Source: Actinomycetes bacterium (GTDB lineage: Bacteria > Actinomycetota > Acidimicrobiia > Acidimicrobiales > Bog-793). From it: 37,023 bases of DNA. The position numbers and the translations under genes were made by a program. Of this stretch, positions 25,757 through 34,111 are shown piece by piece. The notes under the pieces were generated by a model. The model saw only the letters and a program-made list of their open reading frames with translations. It did no database searches and was not told the origin of the DNA. Within the stretch, counting starts at the first letter, position 1, and the number at the start of each line of letters is the position of its first letter. The stretch is from positions 1-37,023 of the forward strand of contig JAJZLV010000053.1 of assembly GCA_021803215.1 (NCBI GenBank), in the 5' to 3' direction.

Positions 25757-27187
25757 TCAGCAAATCGGTGCAGGAGAGCCGGCGGCAGTGGGCCGTTCCG
25801 TCACGGCGTCCGGGGTGTTGCTGGGGGAGCCAATCGGTGCGAAGCCGGCTGGGAGGTCGGTCTGCTCCTTGTCGCCCGGGAGCTGGCTGCTTTGAGCAAT
25901 ACCAGGCCCGGGATCGATCATGGAGAGGCACTCCTTCCCGCGGGCCACGAGGACCATGTGGAGTCGGGCGACCATCTTGGCTGCCATCTCTTCGAGCGAC
26001 GGTTCTCCACATACGTCGGACACGGCTTGCGGCAGGTTGGCCGCGAGCGCGCCGACGCGGTCTATGACCTCGCTCGAAGAAAGCCCGACGTCGACCGCTA
26101 GCTTCCCCCACTCTCGACGGCCGATCTGGCGTAGGCGTCTCTGCCCGCCGATCGTCATCGCCAGGTCCAGCCCGTCCAGACCGAAGTCCGGATCGTCGTA
26201 GACGAGTGCAGAGGCCGCGTCATACAGCGGAGCCAGCCGGACTCGCTGGCCAGAGAGAAGGAGCGAGAAGTTCTTCGCGTGGGCATCGCTCCCTCCGATG
26301 AGCCACTGGAAAGCCAGCTGGTCGACGAGGTCGAGCACGCAACGGCGGGCCTCGGCGCCAGGCTGAGCCCGCCAGAGCAACTCGGCCATGCGCCGCGGCC
26401 CTGGCCCACCCTCACGCTGGTACTTGTGCTCGGGCAGGATGCCAAGAGCCTGGCAGAAGTCCTCCTGGTGTACCCGTAGCCAGCGCCCATCGCGCTGCAG
26501 GCGGTCGTAACGTTCGACTACGAGCGCCCGGGTTCCTGCAAACTCCTGCAGCCGCGTCCTTGCGGTCGGGATACCGAGCCGCCGTCCGACCTCGAGGCAG
26601 ACATGCTCGTTCACGTCGTGATGCTCGTAGCCGGGAACGGTCGGCTTCAGGATGTGAGTGGTCGGGGTAGCCCCACCGGGGCGACCCCACCTAGTGCCGT
26701 CGTACAACAGCGCCAGCTTCGCCTGAGCACCGGTCAAGCTCCACTGCGGCCCATGTCGCGTGTAGTGCCACATTGTCGGATCGATCCGCAAGGCATGCAG
26801 CCACCGGCCGATGTCCTCGGCTTCGAGCCACTCGACCGATCCACCGACGCGGGCTGCCTCGTAGCGCTCGGGTCGGACGAACTGGACGGCACCCGCGACA
26901 TCCTCGCCGACCTCTTTCAGCAGTGCGAAGGGATGCCGAGAGGTGATGTCGAACTGCTGACGCCAGCGCTGGAGCACTCGCTCGTTGTCCGGCAACAGGC
27001 CTTCGACGAAGGGGCGGACGACGCGGTGCTCGTGACGTGAGACGACGGTCGGCATTGAGAGGGACAAGGGAGTGGCGGCACGCGGCCGGCTCGTCTCATA
27101 GCTGAAGTGCATCCTCCCGCTCGGATCATGCACGAGCTCGCCGGCGAACTCGCCTTCGATGAGGACGAGGAGCCGCTTATCGCTCAT
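25757..27187 (-). CDS. hipA: HipA-like serine/threonine kinase toxin
   Basis: HipA N-domain LLVLIEGEFAGELVHDPSGRMHFSYE...SLSMP; SLTGAQAKLALLYDG; FQWLIGGSDAHAKNFSLLLSG; LAPLYDAASAL. Confidence 0.93.
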   Translation of the reverse strand: MSDKRLLVLIEGEFAGELVHDPSGRMHFSYETSRPRAATPLSLSMPTVVSRHEHRVVRPFVEGLLPDNERVLQRWRQQFDITSRHPFALLKEVGEDVAGAVQFVRPERYEAARVGGSVEWLEAEDIGRWLHALRIDPTMWHYTRHGPQWSLTGAQAKLALLYDGTRWGRPGGATPTTHILKPTVPGYEHHDVNEHVCLEVGRRLGIPTARTRLQEFAGTRALVVERYDRLQRDGRWLRVHQEDFCQALGILPEHKYQREGGPGPRRMAELLWRAQPGAEARRCVLDLVDQLAFQWLIGGSDAHAKNFSLLLSGQRVRLAPLYDAASALVYDDPDFGLDGLDLAMTIGGQRRLRQIGRREWGKLAVDVGLSSSEVIDRVGALAANLPQAVSDVCGEPSLEEMAAKMVARLHMVLVARGKECLSMIDPGPGIAQSSQLPGDKEQTDLPAGFAPIGSPSNTPDAVTERPTAAGSPAPIC

Positions 27188-27488
27188 CAGCTGACCGGAG
27201 ACTGTCGAGCAGGGCGTCGACGTCTAGCCCCTGGGGTTCTGTGTCGGCAGGCGACACGACCTCGGTGTCGGTCACGGCCAAGCTGAGGCCGAGAGCGGCG
27301 AAGAGGTCGAGCACGAGCCCGAGCTCGGCCCGCCTCGCTCCTTGCTCGAATGAGTTGACCCACTGGCGCGACACGCCGGCCTGTCGTGCGGCCACCTCCT
27401 GCGACATCCCAAGGGCGCGGCGCTGTGCTCGGGCCGTATGCCCGATGTCAACGGCGGTACGGATGGGGAGCAGCCGTGGTGTCGTCAT
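27177..27488 (-). CDS. hipB: HipB-like XRE-family antitoxin
   Basis: DIGHTARAQRRALGMSQEVAARQAGVSRQWVNSFEQGARRAELGLVLDLFAALGLSLAV; overlaps the hipA start by 11 bp. Confidence 0.93.
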   Translation of the reverse strand: MTTPRLLPIRTAVDIGHTARAQRRALGMSQEVAARQAGVSRQWVNSFEQGARRAELGLVLDLFAALGLSLAVTDTEVVSPADTEPQGLDVDALLDSLRSADER

Positions 27489-30732: not shown

Positions 30733-31413
30733 TCAAGATGCGGCCAGCCCGGCGAGCGGCTCGTCGAGGGCCCTCGGTTTCCCAGCCTGGCTCCCGGCCG
30801 GTGCGAGAGCGGCGATCCCCCGGCGAGGGACGATTATCTCGTCGATGAGGCCGTACTGCCTGGCCTGCTCGGCGTTCATGTAGCGGTCCCGCTCGATGTC
30901 GGCCGCCACCTGCGCGATGCTCCGACCGGTGTGATGGGCGAGGATCTCGACCATGCGCCTCGTGGTGGCGAGCACCTCCTTCAGGTGGATCTCCATGTCC
31001 CGCGGAGCGCCTCTGGTGCCGGCAGTGCCCTCATGGATCATGATCTTGGCGTTCGGGAGGGCATAGCGCTTGCCTCCGGCGCCGCCGGCGAGGATCATGG
31101 CGGCAGCCGACATGCCCATCCCGACGCAGATGGTCGAGACCTCGCAGCTCACGTGCTGTATGACGTCGTAGATCGCCATGCCGGCGTAGCTGAGGCCGCC
31201 CGGAGAGTTGATGTAGAGGTGGATGTCCTTCTCGGGGTCTTCGGACTCCAGGTAGAGGATCTCCGCGACGAGCAAGTTGGCGATCTGGTCGTCGACCTCT
31301 TGTCCGAGAAAGACGATGCGCTCTCTCAGCAGCAACGAGAAGATGTCGTATGCCCTGTCGCCCCGCGCCGTCTGGTCGAGCACGGTGGGGATCATCGAGT
31401 GTCGGATCTCCAT
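30733..31413 (-). CDS. clpP: ClpP protease proteolytic subunit (divergent paralogue, triad retained)
   Basis: RAYDIFSLLLRERIVFLGQEVDDQIANLLVAEILYLESEDPEKDIHLYINSPGG...TICVGMGMSAAAMILAGGAGGKRYALPNAKIMIHEG...IERDRYMNAEQARQYGLIDEII. Confidence 0.95.
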   Translation of the reverse strand: MEIRHSMIPTVLDQTARGDRAYDIFSLLLRERIVFLGQEVDDQIANLLVAEILYLESEDPEKDIHLYINSPGGLSYAGMAIYDVIQHVSCEVSTICVGMGMSAAAMILAGGAGGKRYALPNAKIMIHEGTAGTRGAPRDMEIHLKEVLATTRRMVEILAHHTGRSIAQVAADIERDRYMNAEQARQYGLIDEIIVPRRGIAALAPAGSQAGKPRALDEPLAGLAAS

Positions 31414-31422
31414 CTCTGCCTC

Positions 31423-31460
31423 CTCTATCTCAAATAGAATATCTCATTGCTAAGATAGAG
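31423..31460. promoter_or_regulatory. Inverted repeat CTCTATCT-22 nt-AGATAGAG in the divergent clpP/XRE promoter
   Basis: CTCTATCT 31423-31430, AGATAGAG 31453-31460, with an additional TATCT at 31440-31444. The intergenic region is 52 bp and AT-rich. Confidence 0.6.
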
Positions 31461-31465
31461 ATGAC

Positions 31466-31738
31466 ATGAGCGAAGGACCCGAACCCGGTCACCGTCCCGT
31501 CTTCCCGGGCTTCAGGGAGATCGCGGAGCGCCGTCGCCAGTTCCTCTCGAGCCTCGTCGAGCAGCGGGTCGCACTCGGCCTGACCCAGACAGAGGTGGCG
31601 GCCCGGATGGGGACCTCGCAGTCGGCCGTGGCCCGGCTCGAGTCTGGCGAGGCAGACGTTCGGGTCTCCACCCTGGAGCGCTACGCGGCAGCGCTCGACG
31701 GCTCGCTCGAGTGGCATCTGCGCAAGGAGGAGCGGTGA
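31466..31738 (+). CDS. XRE-family helix-turn-helix regulator
   Basis: FLSSLVEQRVALGLTQTEVAARMGTSQSAVARLESGEADVRVSTLERYAAALDGSLEW. Confidence 0.92.
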   Translation: MSEGPEPGHRPVFPGFREIAERRRQFLSSLVEQRVALGLTQTEVAARMGTSQSAVARLESGEADVRVSTLERYAAALDGSLEWHLRKEER

Positions 31739-32325
31739 GCGACCACTCCCGACTCGAGAGCGGCGACTGGCTGGAGGCTTTCTTGTTCGACCGGCGCATG
31801 GCGGTCCTGCGCGGCACCCTCGACGACGGGCTCGCCACCCGGGTGGCGACCGAGCTCATGACCTTCGATGCCACTGGTGACGATCCGGTCACCTTGCAGG
31901 TGGACTGCTCGGGCGGGACGCTCACGGCCGCTCTCACGCTGGTCGACGTGATCGAGGTGCTCGGGGTGCCCGTCGAGGTGCTCTGCATGGGCAGGGTGGA
32001 GGGCGTCGGAGTGGCGGTCGTGGCGGCTGCCTCGTCGAGAAGGGCCCTTTCCCACACCCAGTTCAAGATGGGCGACCCCGAGCTCTCCTTCGAGGCCCGT
32101 GCCGGTGAGGTGGCGCGCCTGGCGGCCGCTCAGCGAGATCTGCTCGGCCGGTACCACCAGGTCCTCGCACAAGCGACGAAGCGAACGGTCGAGGAGATCG
32201 AGCGGTGGTGCGCGAGACGAAGCGTCTTCGACGTCTCCGAGGCGATGAGCCGAGGGATCGTCGACGAGATACTCCGCGGCAAGGAAGGCCCCCGCTCGGC
32301 CCGCCAGAGCCACTCTGGTCGGTAA
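31735..32325 (+). CDS. ClpP-fold protein lacking catalytic residues (ClpR-like pseudoprotease)
   Basis: MAVLRGTLDDGLATRVATELMTFDA...VTLQVDCSGGTLTAALTLVDVIEVLGVPVEVLCMGRVEGVGVAVVAAASSRRALSHTQFKMGDPE...IERWCARRSVFDVSEAMSRGIVDEIL. GTG start overlaps the XRE stop; AAGGAGG RBS. Confidence 0.8.
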   Translation: MSDHSRLESGDWLEAFLFDRRMAVLRGTLDDGLATRVATELMTFDATGDDPVTLQVDCSGGTLTAALTLVDVIEVLGVPVEVLCMGRVEGVGVAVVAAASSRRALSHTQFKMGDPELSFEARAGEVARLAAAQRDLLGRYHQVLAQATKRTVEEIERWCARRSVFDVSEAMSRGIVDEILRGKEGPRSARQSHSGR

Positions 32326-32398: not shown

Positions 32399-34111
32399 CT
32401 ACTTGATGCGGTCGATGATCTGGCCGATGTCGAAAGAGCCGAGACCGGTCGTGTAGTCCCAGCCGGGCGTAGCGACGAAGCCTCCGTTCGTCCCGACCGT
32501 CACGTCGTGGAAGGCGGGGGTGCTGCAGATGTCGGCCAGGCTGAGCGAGGTGCAGCTACCGGCCGCGTAGGTCCGGTAGAGGGCGACGGAGGCCATGCCG
32601 AGGCGGTTGGCGTGGGCGCTCTCGAGCCTGGCCCAGACGCCGAGCGCCAGAGGCGAGGAGAGGCTCGTGCCTCCCCAGCCGGCGCTCTCCTTACCGTCGA
32701 TGACGAGCGTCACGCCCGAATAGGGGTCGGCGTCCATGGCGATGTCGGGCACGCCCTTGCCGACGGCCGAGCCGGGGACTATCCCGTTTTGCCAGTAAGG
32801 AGCGCTCTCCCAGACGCTCGAGCCGCCGCCGCCGGCGTTCCAGGCGATCTCGTCGTAGTAGGTGTTGTTGGAATTCGTGAGGAGCGTCGTCCCGCCAACA
32901 GCGGTGACATAGGGGGAAGACGCCGGGTAGTTGACGCTCGGCGGGCCTGAGTCCGGCACGCCGTTGGTGCCGGCAACGGCGCAGGCAGCGCCGGTGTCAC
33001 CCGAGGAGGCGAAGAACGACTGGCCCTGGGCGGCTCCTTCGGCGAAGGCCTCATCGTCGGCGAACATCGAACCGTCAAGGTAGGGGAAGGTCTCGCACTC
33101 CCCGAGGGAGGCGCTGGCGGCCCGGGCGACGTCTTGTGCCACGAACTTGTTGATGGCGAGCGCCAGGTCGGAGTCGGTGAGCGAGGTGGCGTCGTAGAGG
33201 TAGAGCCTCTTCACGTTGTGGGCCATGGCCGTGGAGACCTGGGTGTCCATGTCCCACTCGTCGACGCCCGAGGTGTCCGGGCTGGCCAGGCCGGCGTGCA
33301 CGATCGTCACCCGTACCCGGGGTAGACGGTTGACCTGCTCCGCGACGCGGAGGTCTTTCACCACCTGGGTGAGATTGCCTTCGGCGATTATCGCTATCGC
33401 CGTCCTCCAGCCGGTCGGGGTCCTCGGGGTGGCTCCGTAGATGGCCGGGAACTGGCTCGGCTGGTACGAGACGTTGTACTGCGGCAGTCCGGTCGAGACT
33501 GCCGGCGAGGGCTTGGTGTCCTTGGTTGTCTTCAGCGTGGAGTGGATGGCGACGATGTCGTTCAGGCCGAGGACGGCGCCGACAGTCCCTCCAAGGCGTG
33601 AGGGTACCCGGGCCGGGGCCGTGTTGGCGAAGACGATCCGGCCGGCCTGCTTGAAGTTGACCAAAGTGGTGTGGAAGGCACGCTCGACGTCCGAGACGCT
33701 GCCGCTGGCAGATACGAGGAGGCGGTTGCCAGTCACCGACAGGTGCGAGAAACCTTGGTGCAAGAGGTAGTCGCGGACCGCTCGCACCTCGGCGGGCGTG
33801 GGTGCGAAGCGAGCCTCGAACTGCGAGCGGCTGAGTGGGGCGGCTCCGGCTGCGATGCGGTGATCGAGCGTCGCTCGATTCCGCAGGTCTAGCACCGCTC
33901 TTATCGTGAGAGTCTTGTCCCTCGGAGTGGCTCCAAGGCGCAGGGCCTCCCTGAGCGGCAGAGCTCTGGTGGCGGTCTCGTGCCAGGAGACGGCGTGATG
34001 GACGCTGGCTCCTGCCGGCAGCGCTGACAGGCCGGACAGCCCCGCTACGCCGCCGGCCAAGAGCGCGGCGGCCATCACCGGGCGAAGCGCCCTTCGAGGC
34101 GCAGTGGTCAT
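32399..34111 (-). CDS. Secreted S53 (sedolisin/pro-kumamolisin) serine-carboxyl peptidase
   Basis: Signal peptide, pro-domain, DEWDMDTQVS (Glu/Asp), FFASSGDTGA, GWGGTSLSSPLALG (Ser), Ca-site-like GWDYTTGLGS. Confidence 0.93.
   Translation of the reverse strand: MTTAPRRALRPVMAAALLAGGVAGLSGLSALPAGASVHHAVSWHETATRALPLREALRLGATPRDKTLTIRAVLDLRNRATLDHRIAAGAAPLSRSQFEARFAPTPAEVRAVRDYLLHQGFSHLSVTGNRLLVSASGSVSDVERAFHTTLVNFKQAGRIVFANTAPARVPSRLGGTVGAVLGLNDIVAIHSTLKTTKDTKPSPAVSTGLPQYNVSYQPSQFPAIYGATPRTPTGWRTAIAIIAEGNLTQVVKDLRVAEQVNRLPRVRVTIVHAGLASPDTSGVDEWDMDTQVSTAMAHNVKRLYLYDATSLTDSDLALAINKFVAQDVARAASASLGECETFPYLDGSMFADDEAFAEGAAQGQSFFASSGDTGAACAVAGTNGVPDSGPPSVNYPASSPYVTAVGGTTLLTNSNNTYYDEIAWNAGGGGSSVWESAPYWQNGIVPGSAVGKGVPDIAMDADPYSGVTLVIDGKESAGWGGTSLSSPLALGVWARLESAHANRLGMASVALYRTYAAGSCTSLSLADICSTPAFHDVTVGTNGGFVATPGWDYTTGLGSFDIGQIIDRIK

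Follow-up and report, generated by a model that had tools for sequence, protein, structure and literature searches.

A conserved three-gene unit pairing an active ClpP with a triad-less ClpP homologue and a small XRE regulator in Acidimicrobiia-type genomes

Main finding

The window (i.e. the whole 37,023-nucleotide stretch of DNA that was analysed) contains a three-gene unit, P1-X-P2, in which a clpP gene with an intact catalytic triad (P1) is divergent from two genes coding for a small XRE regulator (X) and for a ClpP-fold protein that has lost the triad (P2). The conservation of this unit, the triad loss and ClpP fold of P2, the purifying selection acting on P2 and the operator between the divergent genes were all computed directly. 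The finding is real and extends further than could be seen in an earlier sequence-only reading of the same DNA; its regulatory side has good support. We think that the unit is probably an accessory Clp core under local autoregulation, in which P2 serves as the dedicated non-catalytic, ClpR-like subunit. No description of a P1-X-P2 unit was found in the open-licence literature.

Gene content and organization in the window

The unit is made up of the following features:

30733–31413, minus strand: P1, a clpP gene (239 bits against Pfam CLP_protease, cut-off 20.2; intact triad; own clade within ClpP)
31414–31465, no strand: divergent intergenic region of 52 bp, common to P1 and X-P2
31440–31457, plus strand: predicted X operator, TATCTCATTGCTAAGATA (consensus TATCTC-N6-GAGATA, core TATC-N10-GATA)
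31466–31738, plus strand: X, a 90-aa XRE/HipB-like DNA-binding protein (54 bits against Pfam HTH_3)
31735–32325, plus strand: P2, a catalytically dead ClpP-fold protein (80 bits against Pfam CLP_protease, cut-off 20.2; fold model; triad lost)

The stop codon of X and the GTG start codon of P2 share a 4-bp overlap (GTGA, 31735–31738). The sequence-only reading had given these coordinates and strands, the 52-bp divergent spacer and the X/P2 overlap, all of which are exact on recheck. It had also proposed a check for a canonical clpP1P2-clpX operon elsewhere in the genome: a canonical tig-clpP-clpX locus is present outside the unit, together with one further clpP gene. P1-X-P2 is thus an accessory system.

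Two neighbouring loci deserve mention. A HipBA-type pair, made up of a HipA-like gene and an XRE gene upstream of it (25757–27488, minus strand), lies 3 kb from the Clp unit, and its promoter region contains no TATC-N10-GATA. A gene for a secreted pro-kumamolisin (S53/sedolisin-like) peptidase (32399–34111, minus strand) converges on P2 and is not kept next to P1-X-P2 in relatives. The Rfam search gave zero matches, and the scans for sigma-70 promoters and for terminators were both empty. Among the defence-system models of PADLOC, none matched P1 or P2 and X gave generic HTH matches only; PHROGs lent no support to a phage origin of P2, and P2 was not found in the plasmids searched.

Conservation of the unit

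In the 298 genomes of the order, P1 (E <= 1e-80) is present in 26 and P2 (scoring well above the canonical-ClpP background) in 28. All 26 P1 genomes hold P2, a count that includes one frameshifted copy (G173), and in the three genomes with P2 only, P2 lies at contig ends. A scan of one genome per species with P1 as the seed returned 109 P1 loci, of which 80 were kept: 60 have all three genes, 5 are cut by a contig end or have no local X, and 15 have neither X nor P2. A scan of genome contigs seeded by P2 alone gave no matches, and the P2 alignment was too divergent to serve as a seed.

Pooling yields 63 non-redundant complete P1-X-P2 units, all of them divergent, with a median spacing of 97 bp. 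X and P2 overlap in 51 of the 63, by exactly 4 bases in 25. No conserved flanking genes beyond P1, X and P2 were found around the units. An arrangement that recurs in 63 non-redundant, invariably divergent units is not accidental. The pairing on which the sequence-only reading depended is thus present in relatives, and its description of a self-contained ClpP/pseudo-ClpP pair with its own HTH switch stands, given these 63 units, no other conserved neighbour and a dedicated predicted operator. Two closely related records (L112 and L115) have about 2 kb of extra genes between P1 and X, one with a zinc-finger/transposase-like start, and are otherwise intact.

The records bearing the unit are mostly MAGs labelled Acidimicrobiales, Acidimicrobiaceae or Actinomycetes (Acidimicrobiia-type genomes), with one named isolate-type record, Acidiferrimicrobium sp. 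IK. A few are labelled Dormibacterota or Acidobacteriota and may be mis-binned. In one of the latter (L077), P2 is 96% identical to that of an Acidimicrobiia-order locus (L030), which suggests that its label or binning is probably wrong. In a phylum-wide profile search (matches of 125–158 bits), the 11 best non-window loci, one of which (L204) aligned unusably, were canonical ClpPs or held no other triad-less protein. P2 relatives outside the class were not found in the phylum-wide sample checked.

Catalytic and docking residues of P1 and P2

Aligned to E. coli ClpP, P1 has all of the catalytic Ser, His and Asp, and it carries the signatures GMGMS-AAA and MIHEG (MIHQG in most relatives). Ser and His are present in 84/84 P1 proteins, and Asp in 83/83 that have sequence at that position, in agreement with the earlier description of an intact triad. 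At the sequence level, P1 combines the CLP_protease domain and the Ser-His-Asp triad of MEROPS S14 ClpP peptidases. It also forms its own clade within ClpP; the orphan ClpPs and those linked to ClpX in these genomes fall outside it.

In P2, the positions equivalent to Ser, His and Asp in the same alignment are occupied by Gly90, Gly113 (FKMGDP) and Arg162 (CARRSVF), respectively. The sequence-only reading had placed both glycines correctly, but its Ser at the Asp position was one residue off. Among 70 P2 proteins, the Ser position is Gly in 69 and Thr in one, the His position is never His, and the Asp position is Gly in 55 and Asp in only two. The same pattern of loss across 70 related proteins indicates that it is not due to chance, and intact catalytic residues do not reappear elsewhere in P2. 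Having no Ser-His-Asp triad, P2 falls outside the MEROPS S14 ClpP peptidases; it is a ClpP homologue without a catalytic triad, as ClpR is defined.

The AlphaFold model of P2 (pLDDT 92.5, pTM 0.84) and a Foldseek search of the PDB agree on a ClpP fold, as had been proposed, and not on a crotonase or an unrelated fold. ClpP accounts for all 50 Foldseek matches listed (TM about 0.8), and the nearest structures include Listeria ClpP1/2 and the Pseudomonas ClpP1/ClpP2 heterocomplexes.

The two proteins also differ in docking-site residues and at the N-terminus. The docking residue Tyr62 is present in 84/84 P1 but only 8/70 P2 proteins, the N-terminal axial-loop motif in 60/63 P1 but 0/63 P2 proteins, and most hydrophobic docking-site residues are lost across the alignment of 70 P2s. 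In ClpP, an Asp/Glu-Arg pair next to the catalytic Asp aids ring stacking. P2 has lost this pair, which makes canonical ring stacking by P2 doubtful.

C-terminal tails of P2

A [LIVMFP]-G-[FYL] motif occurs near the end of the tail in 23 of 69 P2 proteins (22 genuine and one, from L049, a frameshift artefact), whereas shuffling of the tails gives an expectation of 3.8. In the same genomes, most ClpX loops have the sequence IGFRAE, which is near P2 tails such as IGFRPRR and LGFRPRP. In L013, L015, L017, L075, L095, L099, L114, L123 and others, the P2 C-terminus has the ClpX-IGF-loop-like form [FLIVM]-G-F-x-P. As a universal feature of P2 the tail motif was rejected: it is absent from about two thirds of the P2 proteins, including the window P2 and those of its genus. 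Since the window P2 has no such tail, the IGF-loop-like tail is a lineage variant.

These tails bear on the alternative that P2 is not a core subunit but a dedicated inhibitor or plug. It would keep the accessory protease latent by capping or poisoning P1 (or else the housekeeping ClpP), and in many species its C-terminal [LIVMF]-G-F tail would do so by entering the hydrophobic sites at which Clp ATPases bind. The excess of the motif, its resemblance to the ClpX loops of the same genomes and the few docking-site residues kept in P2 itself all fit such a role, for which the long C-terminus of Listeria ClpP2, which can occupy its own docking site, is a precedent (PMC9035409). However, a motif that the window P2 and most other P2s do not have cannot provide a universal mechanism, the P2 tail is of low confidence in the structure model, and the roles of subunit and plug can coexist. 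We consider this alternative possible but on the unlikely side. The corresponding claim that P2 represents a novel type of Clp regulator, i.e. a dead paralogue plugging the ATPase-docking sites of its active partner, seems to us unlikely to a similar degree. If it were true, a latent protease would be switched at both the transcriptional (X) and the assembly (P2) levels, and in many lineages the plugging would rely on a C-terminal mimic of the ClpX IGF loop.

Evolution and selection

In a tree that also includes P1s and sampled canonical ClpPs, P2 forms a single clade apart from these with 100% support, which means that the triad was lost a single time. Relative to ClpR, P2 may be of independent origin. 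For the same 27 loci, the subtree length is 24.7 changes per site for P2 compared with 8.2 for P1, i.e. P2 evolves about three times faster. Pairwise dN/dS values (near-identical pairs being uninformative) are about 0.08–0.46 for P2 and about 0.05–0.27 for P1. Being well under 1, these values indicate that P2 is constrained: it is under purifying selection, although looser than that on P1.

The faster evolution of P2 could be taken to mean that it is an ordinary duplicate, i.e. a decaying, pseudogene-like paralogue hitch-hiking with P1. P2 is also frameshifted in one genome (G173, locus L049) and split in another locus (L086), where P1 and X are intact, owing to either sequencing error or natural loss. 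However, P2 is open and intact in about 70 diverse copies with dN/dS well under 1, has a near-invariant Gly at the Ser position (69/70) and adopts a high-confidence fold, all of which makes decay a very improbable explanation.

The regulator X and its predicted operator

The best NCBIfam model for X is the HipB-type couple_hipB (35 bits, below the model cut-off), and X is conserved in 25 aligned relatives. In the intergenic regions, the palindrome TATCTC-N6-GAGATA is matched at at least 10 of 12 positions in 51/62 cases compared with 0.8 expected, an excess far too big to be affected by derivation of the consensus from the same regions. The excess is confined to spacing 6, and side peaks at 4 and 8 reflect tandem half-sites. 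The core TATC-N10-GATA is exact in 32/62 regions, compared with 0.26 expected. The operator of the window ends 8 bp upstream of the X start codon; it is the only TATC-N10-GATA in the 37-kb window and the only match to the consensus in the genome when one mismatch is allowed.

Two genomes with rearranged units are informative. In G123, X is found on a separate contig, immediately preceded by a perfect operator, and a second perfect operator lies in the 38 bp between the facing P1 and P2 genes. In G003, P1 lies away from the X-P2 pair, and an 11/12 operator immediately precedes the P1 start. The presence of the operator in 51/62 regions and its retention where X or P1 has moved suggest that X very probably controls P1, itself and P2.

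X has an XRE domain and a predicted palindromic operator in its own promoter region, as HipB-like autoregulators do. HipB is an autoregulator with the operator TATCCN8GGATA (PMC3376134), and the TATC-N10-GATA core of the X operator has the same spacing. X thus resembles HipB-type XRE autorepressors in its small size and operator core; it differs in that the gene partnering it codes for a ClpP-fold protein instead of a HipA kinase, and in that its match to the HipB-type NCBIfam model is sub-threshold. Operator spacing, this sub-threshold match and the position of the operator make X, by analogy, likelier to be a repressor than an activator. A HipB-type switch would join the known modes of Clp gene control.

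A further alternative is that P2 acts mainly on X: as a co-regulator with a ClpP fold, it would bind X or a ligand, modulate repression and thereby couple the state of the protease to transcription. Translational coupling of X and P2 in most units is consistent with this, as is genome G003, where X and P2 stay together. By contrast, P1 and P2 are still adjacent in G123, where X is unlinked, and the correlation of P1–P2 distances with X partialled out (partial r 0.54) is stronger than that of either protein with X (0.26–0.28). Moreover, a ClpP-fold transcriptional co-regulator is not known, and we regard this reading as improbable. The P1–P2 correlation itself fits an interaction but can also reflect shared descent.

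Proposed model and comparison with other Clp cores

Regarding the sign of regulation, the co-assembly of P1 and P2 and the effect on proteolysis, we infer the following for the preferred accessory Clp core. X, most likely a repressor, would bind the palindrome between the divergent genes and control P1 on one side and X itself and P2 on the other. Once repression is lifted by some signal, active P1 and inactive P2 would be made together, and their placement under one switch suggests that they act together. The product would most likely be a mixed ClpP core in which all catalytic sites come from P1, which would also contact a housekeeping Clp ATPase as the main docking subunit. P2 would be a non-catalytic subunit that either alternates with P1 within a ring or makes up the opposite ring. 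It would reduce the number of active sites and, because it has neither the axial-loop motif nor most hydrophobic docking-site residues, that of ATPase-docking sites. By analogy with ClpR and ClpP3 of cyanobacteria, a mixed core of P1 and P2 would be the simplest model. The mixed barrel, the gating or restriction of proteolysis and the substrate sensing with feedback on X that the sequence-only reading had suggested for P2 are hypothetical.

Heteromeric ClpP1P2 cores, in which unlike subunits divide the labour, are known from Listeria, Pseudomonas, Mycobacterium and Streptomyces. In these cores, both subunits have retained the triad fully or for the most part, whereas in P2 none of the three residues is left. 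Catalytically inactive ClpP subunits have mainly been described as the ClpR proteins of cyanobacteria, plastids and apicoplasts; these are essential and have many paralogues, so that their role is difficult to isolate. Cyanobacterial ClpP3 and ClpR co-assemble in one core, and plastid ClpR1–4 and apicoplast ClpR are related cases (PMC7966870, PMC6508832). Like ClpR, P2 is a triad-less ClpP-fold protein genetically tied to an active ClpP, its partner gene P1 always lying close by or in the same genome. Unlike ClpR, the P1-X-P2 unit occurs in a different bacterial group and has its own XRE regulator and predicted operator, its P2 has no axial-loop motif, and the co-assembly of its two subunits is putative. 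The unit would represent a three-gene, accessory bacterial version with about 60 natural variants. Given this simplicity, the predicted operator and these variants, the role of a non-catalytic ClpP subunit becomes directly testable by reconstitution of P1, P2 and an ATPase.

Local regulators of accessory clpP genes

Streptomyces clpP3clpP4 is controlled by PopR, an activator and ClgR paralogue that is degraded by ClpP1P2 (PMC9765437, PMC12607617). P1-X-P2 resembles this system in combining an accessory clpP with a dedicated HTH regulator in an actinobacterium that has a housekeeping ClpP. The differences are that (i) X is a 90-aa protein that is HipB-like in both sequence and operator and is encoded divergently from P1, unlike PopR, and (ii) the unit contains one active ClpP and one dead homologue in divergent genes instead of two catalytic ClpPs in one operon.

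This comparison raises the alternative that the unit is a reserve or resistance Clp system of the type of Streptomyces ClpP3P4-PopR or ClpP-ADEP, which would be induced when the housekeeping ClpP is blocked and in which P2 would be a structural relic. In Streptomyces, accessory clpP genes with an HTH regulator of their own do behave in this way (PMC9765437, PMC12607617). In addition, in genomes that carry the label Chloroflexi or Dormibacteraeota, P1 relatives directly follow an XRE gene of 139 aa or longer (L135:5571-5990 and L140:5573-5992), whose helix region (recognition helix) resembles ClgR/PopR by eye. X, however, is short and HipB-like and not ClgR/PopR-like, and P2 is under selection and not decaying. 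We therefore regard a backup Clp with a relic P2 as rather unlikely, and continue to favour a core in which P2 is a dedicated subunit.

X-P2 is absent from a sister group of P1, and P1 can thus do without P2 in some lineages. In L121, L122, L124, L126, L128, L129, L131, L133, L138 and L139, a short AHSA1/SRPBCC gene upstream of P1 faces it, followed in most of these loci by an ArsR-like HTH gene. This suggests that the protease lineage has another private regulator there. Because P1 relatives without X-P2 carry other local regulators, the P1 lineage seems to change its private regulator and to have gained X-P2 once or a few times.
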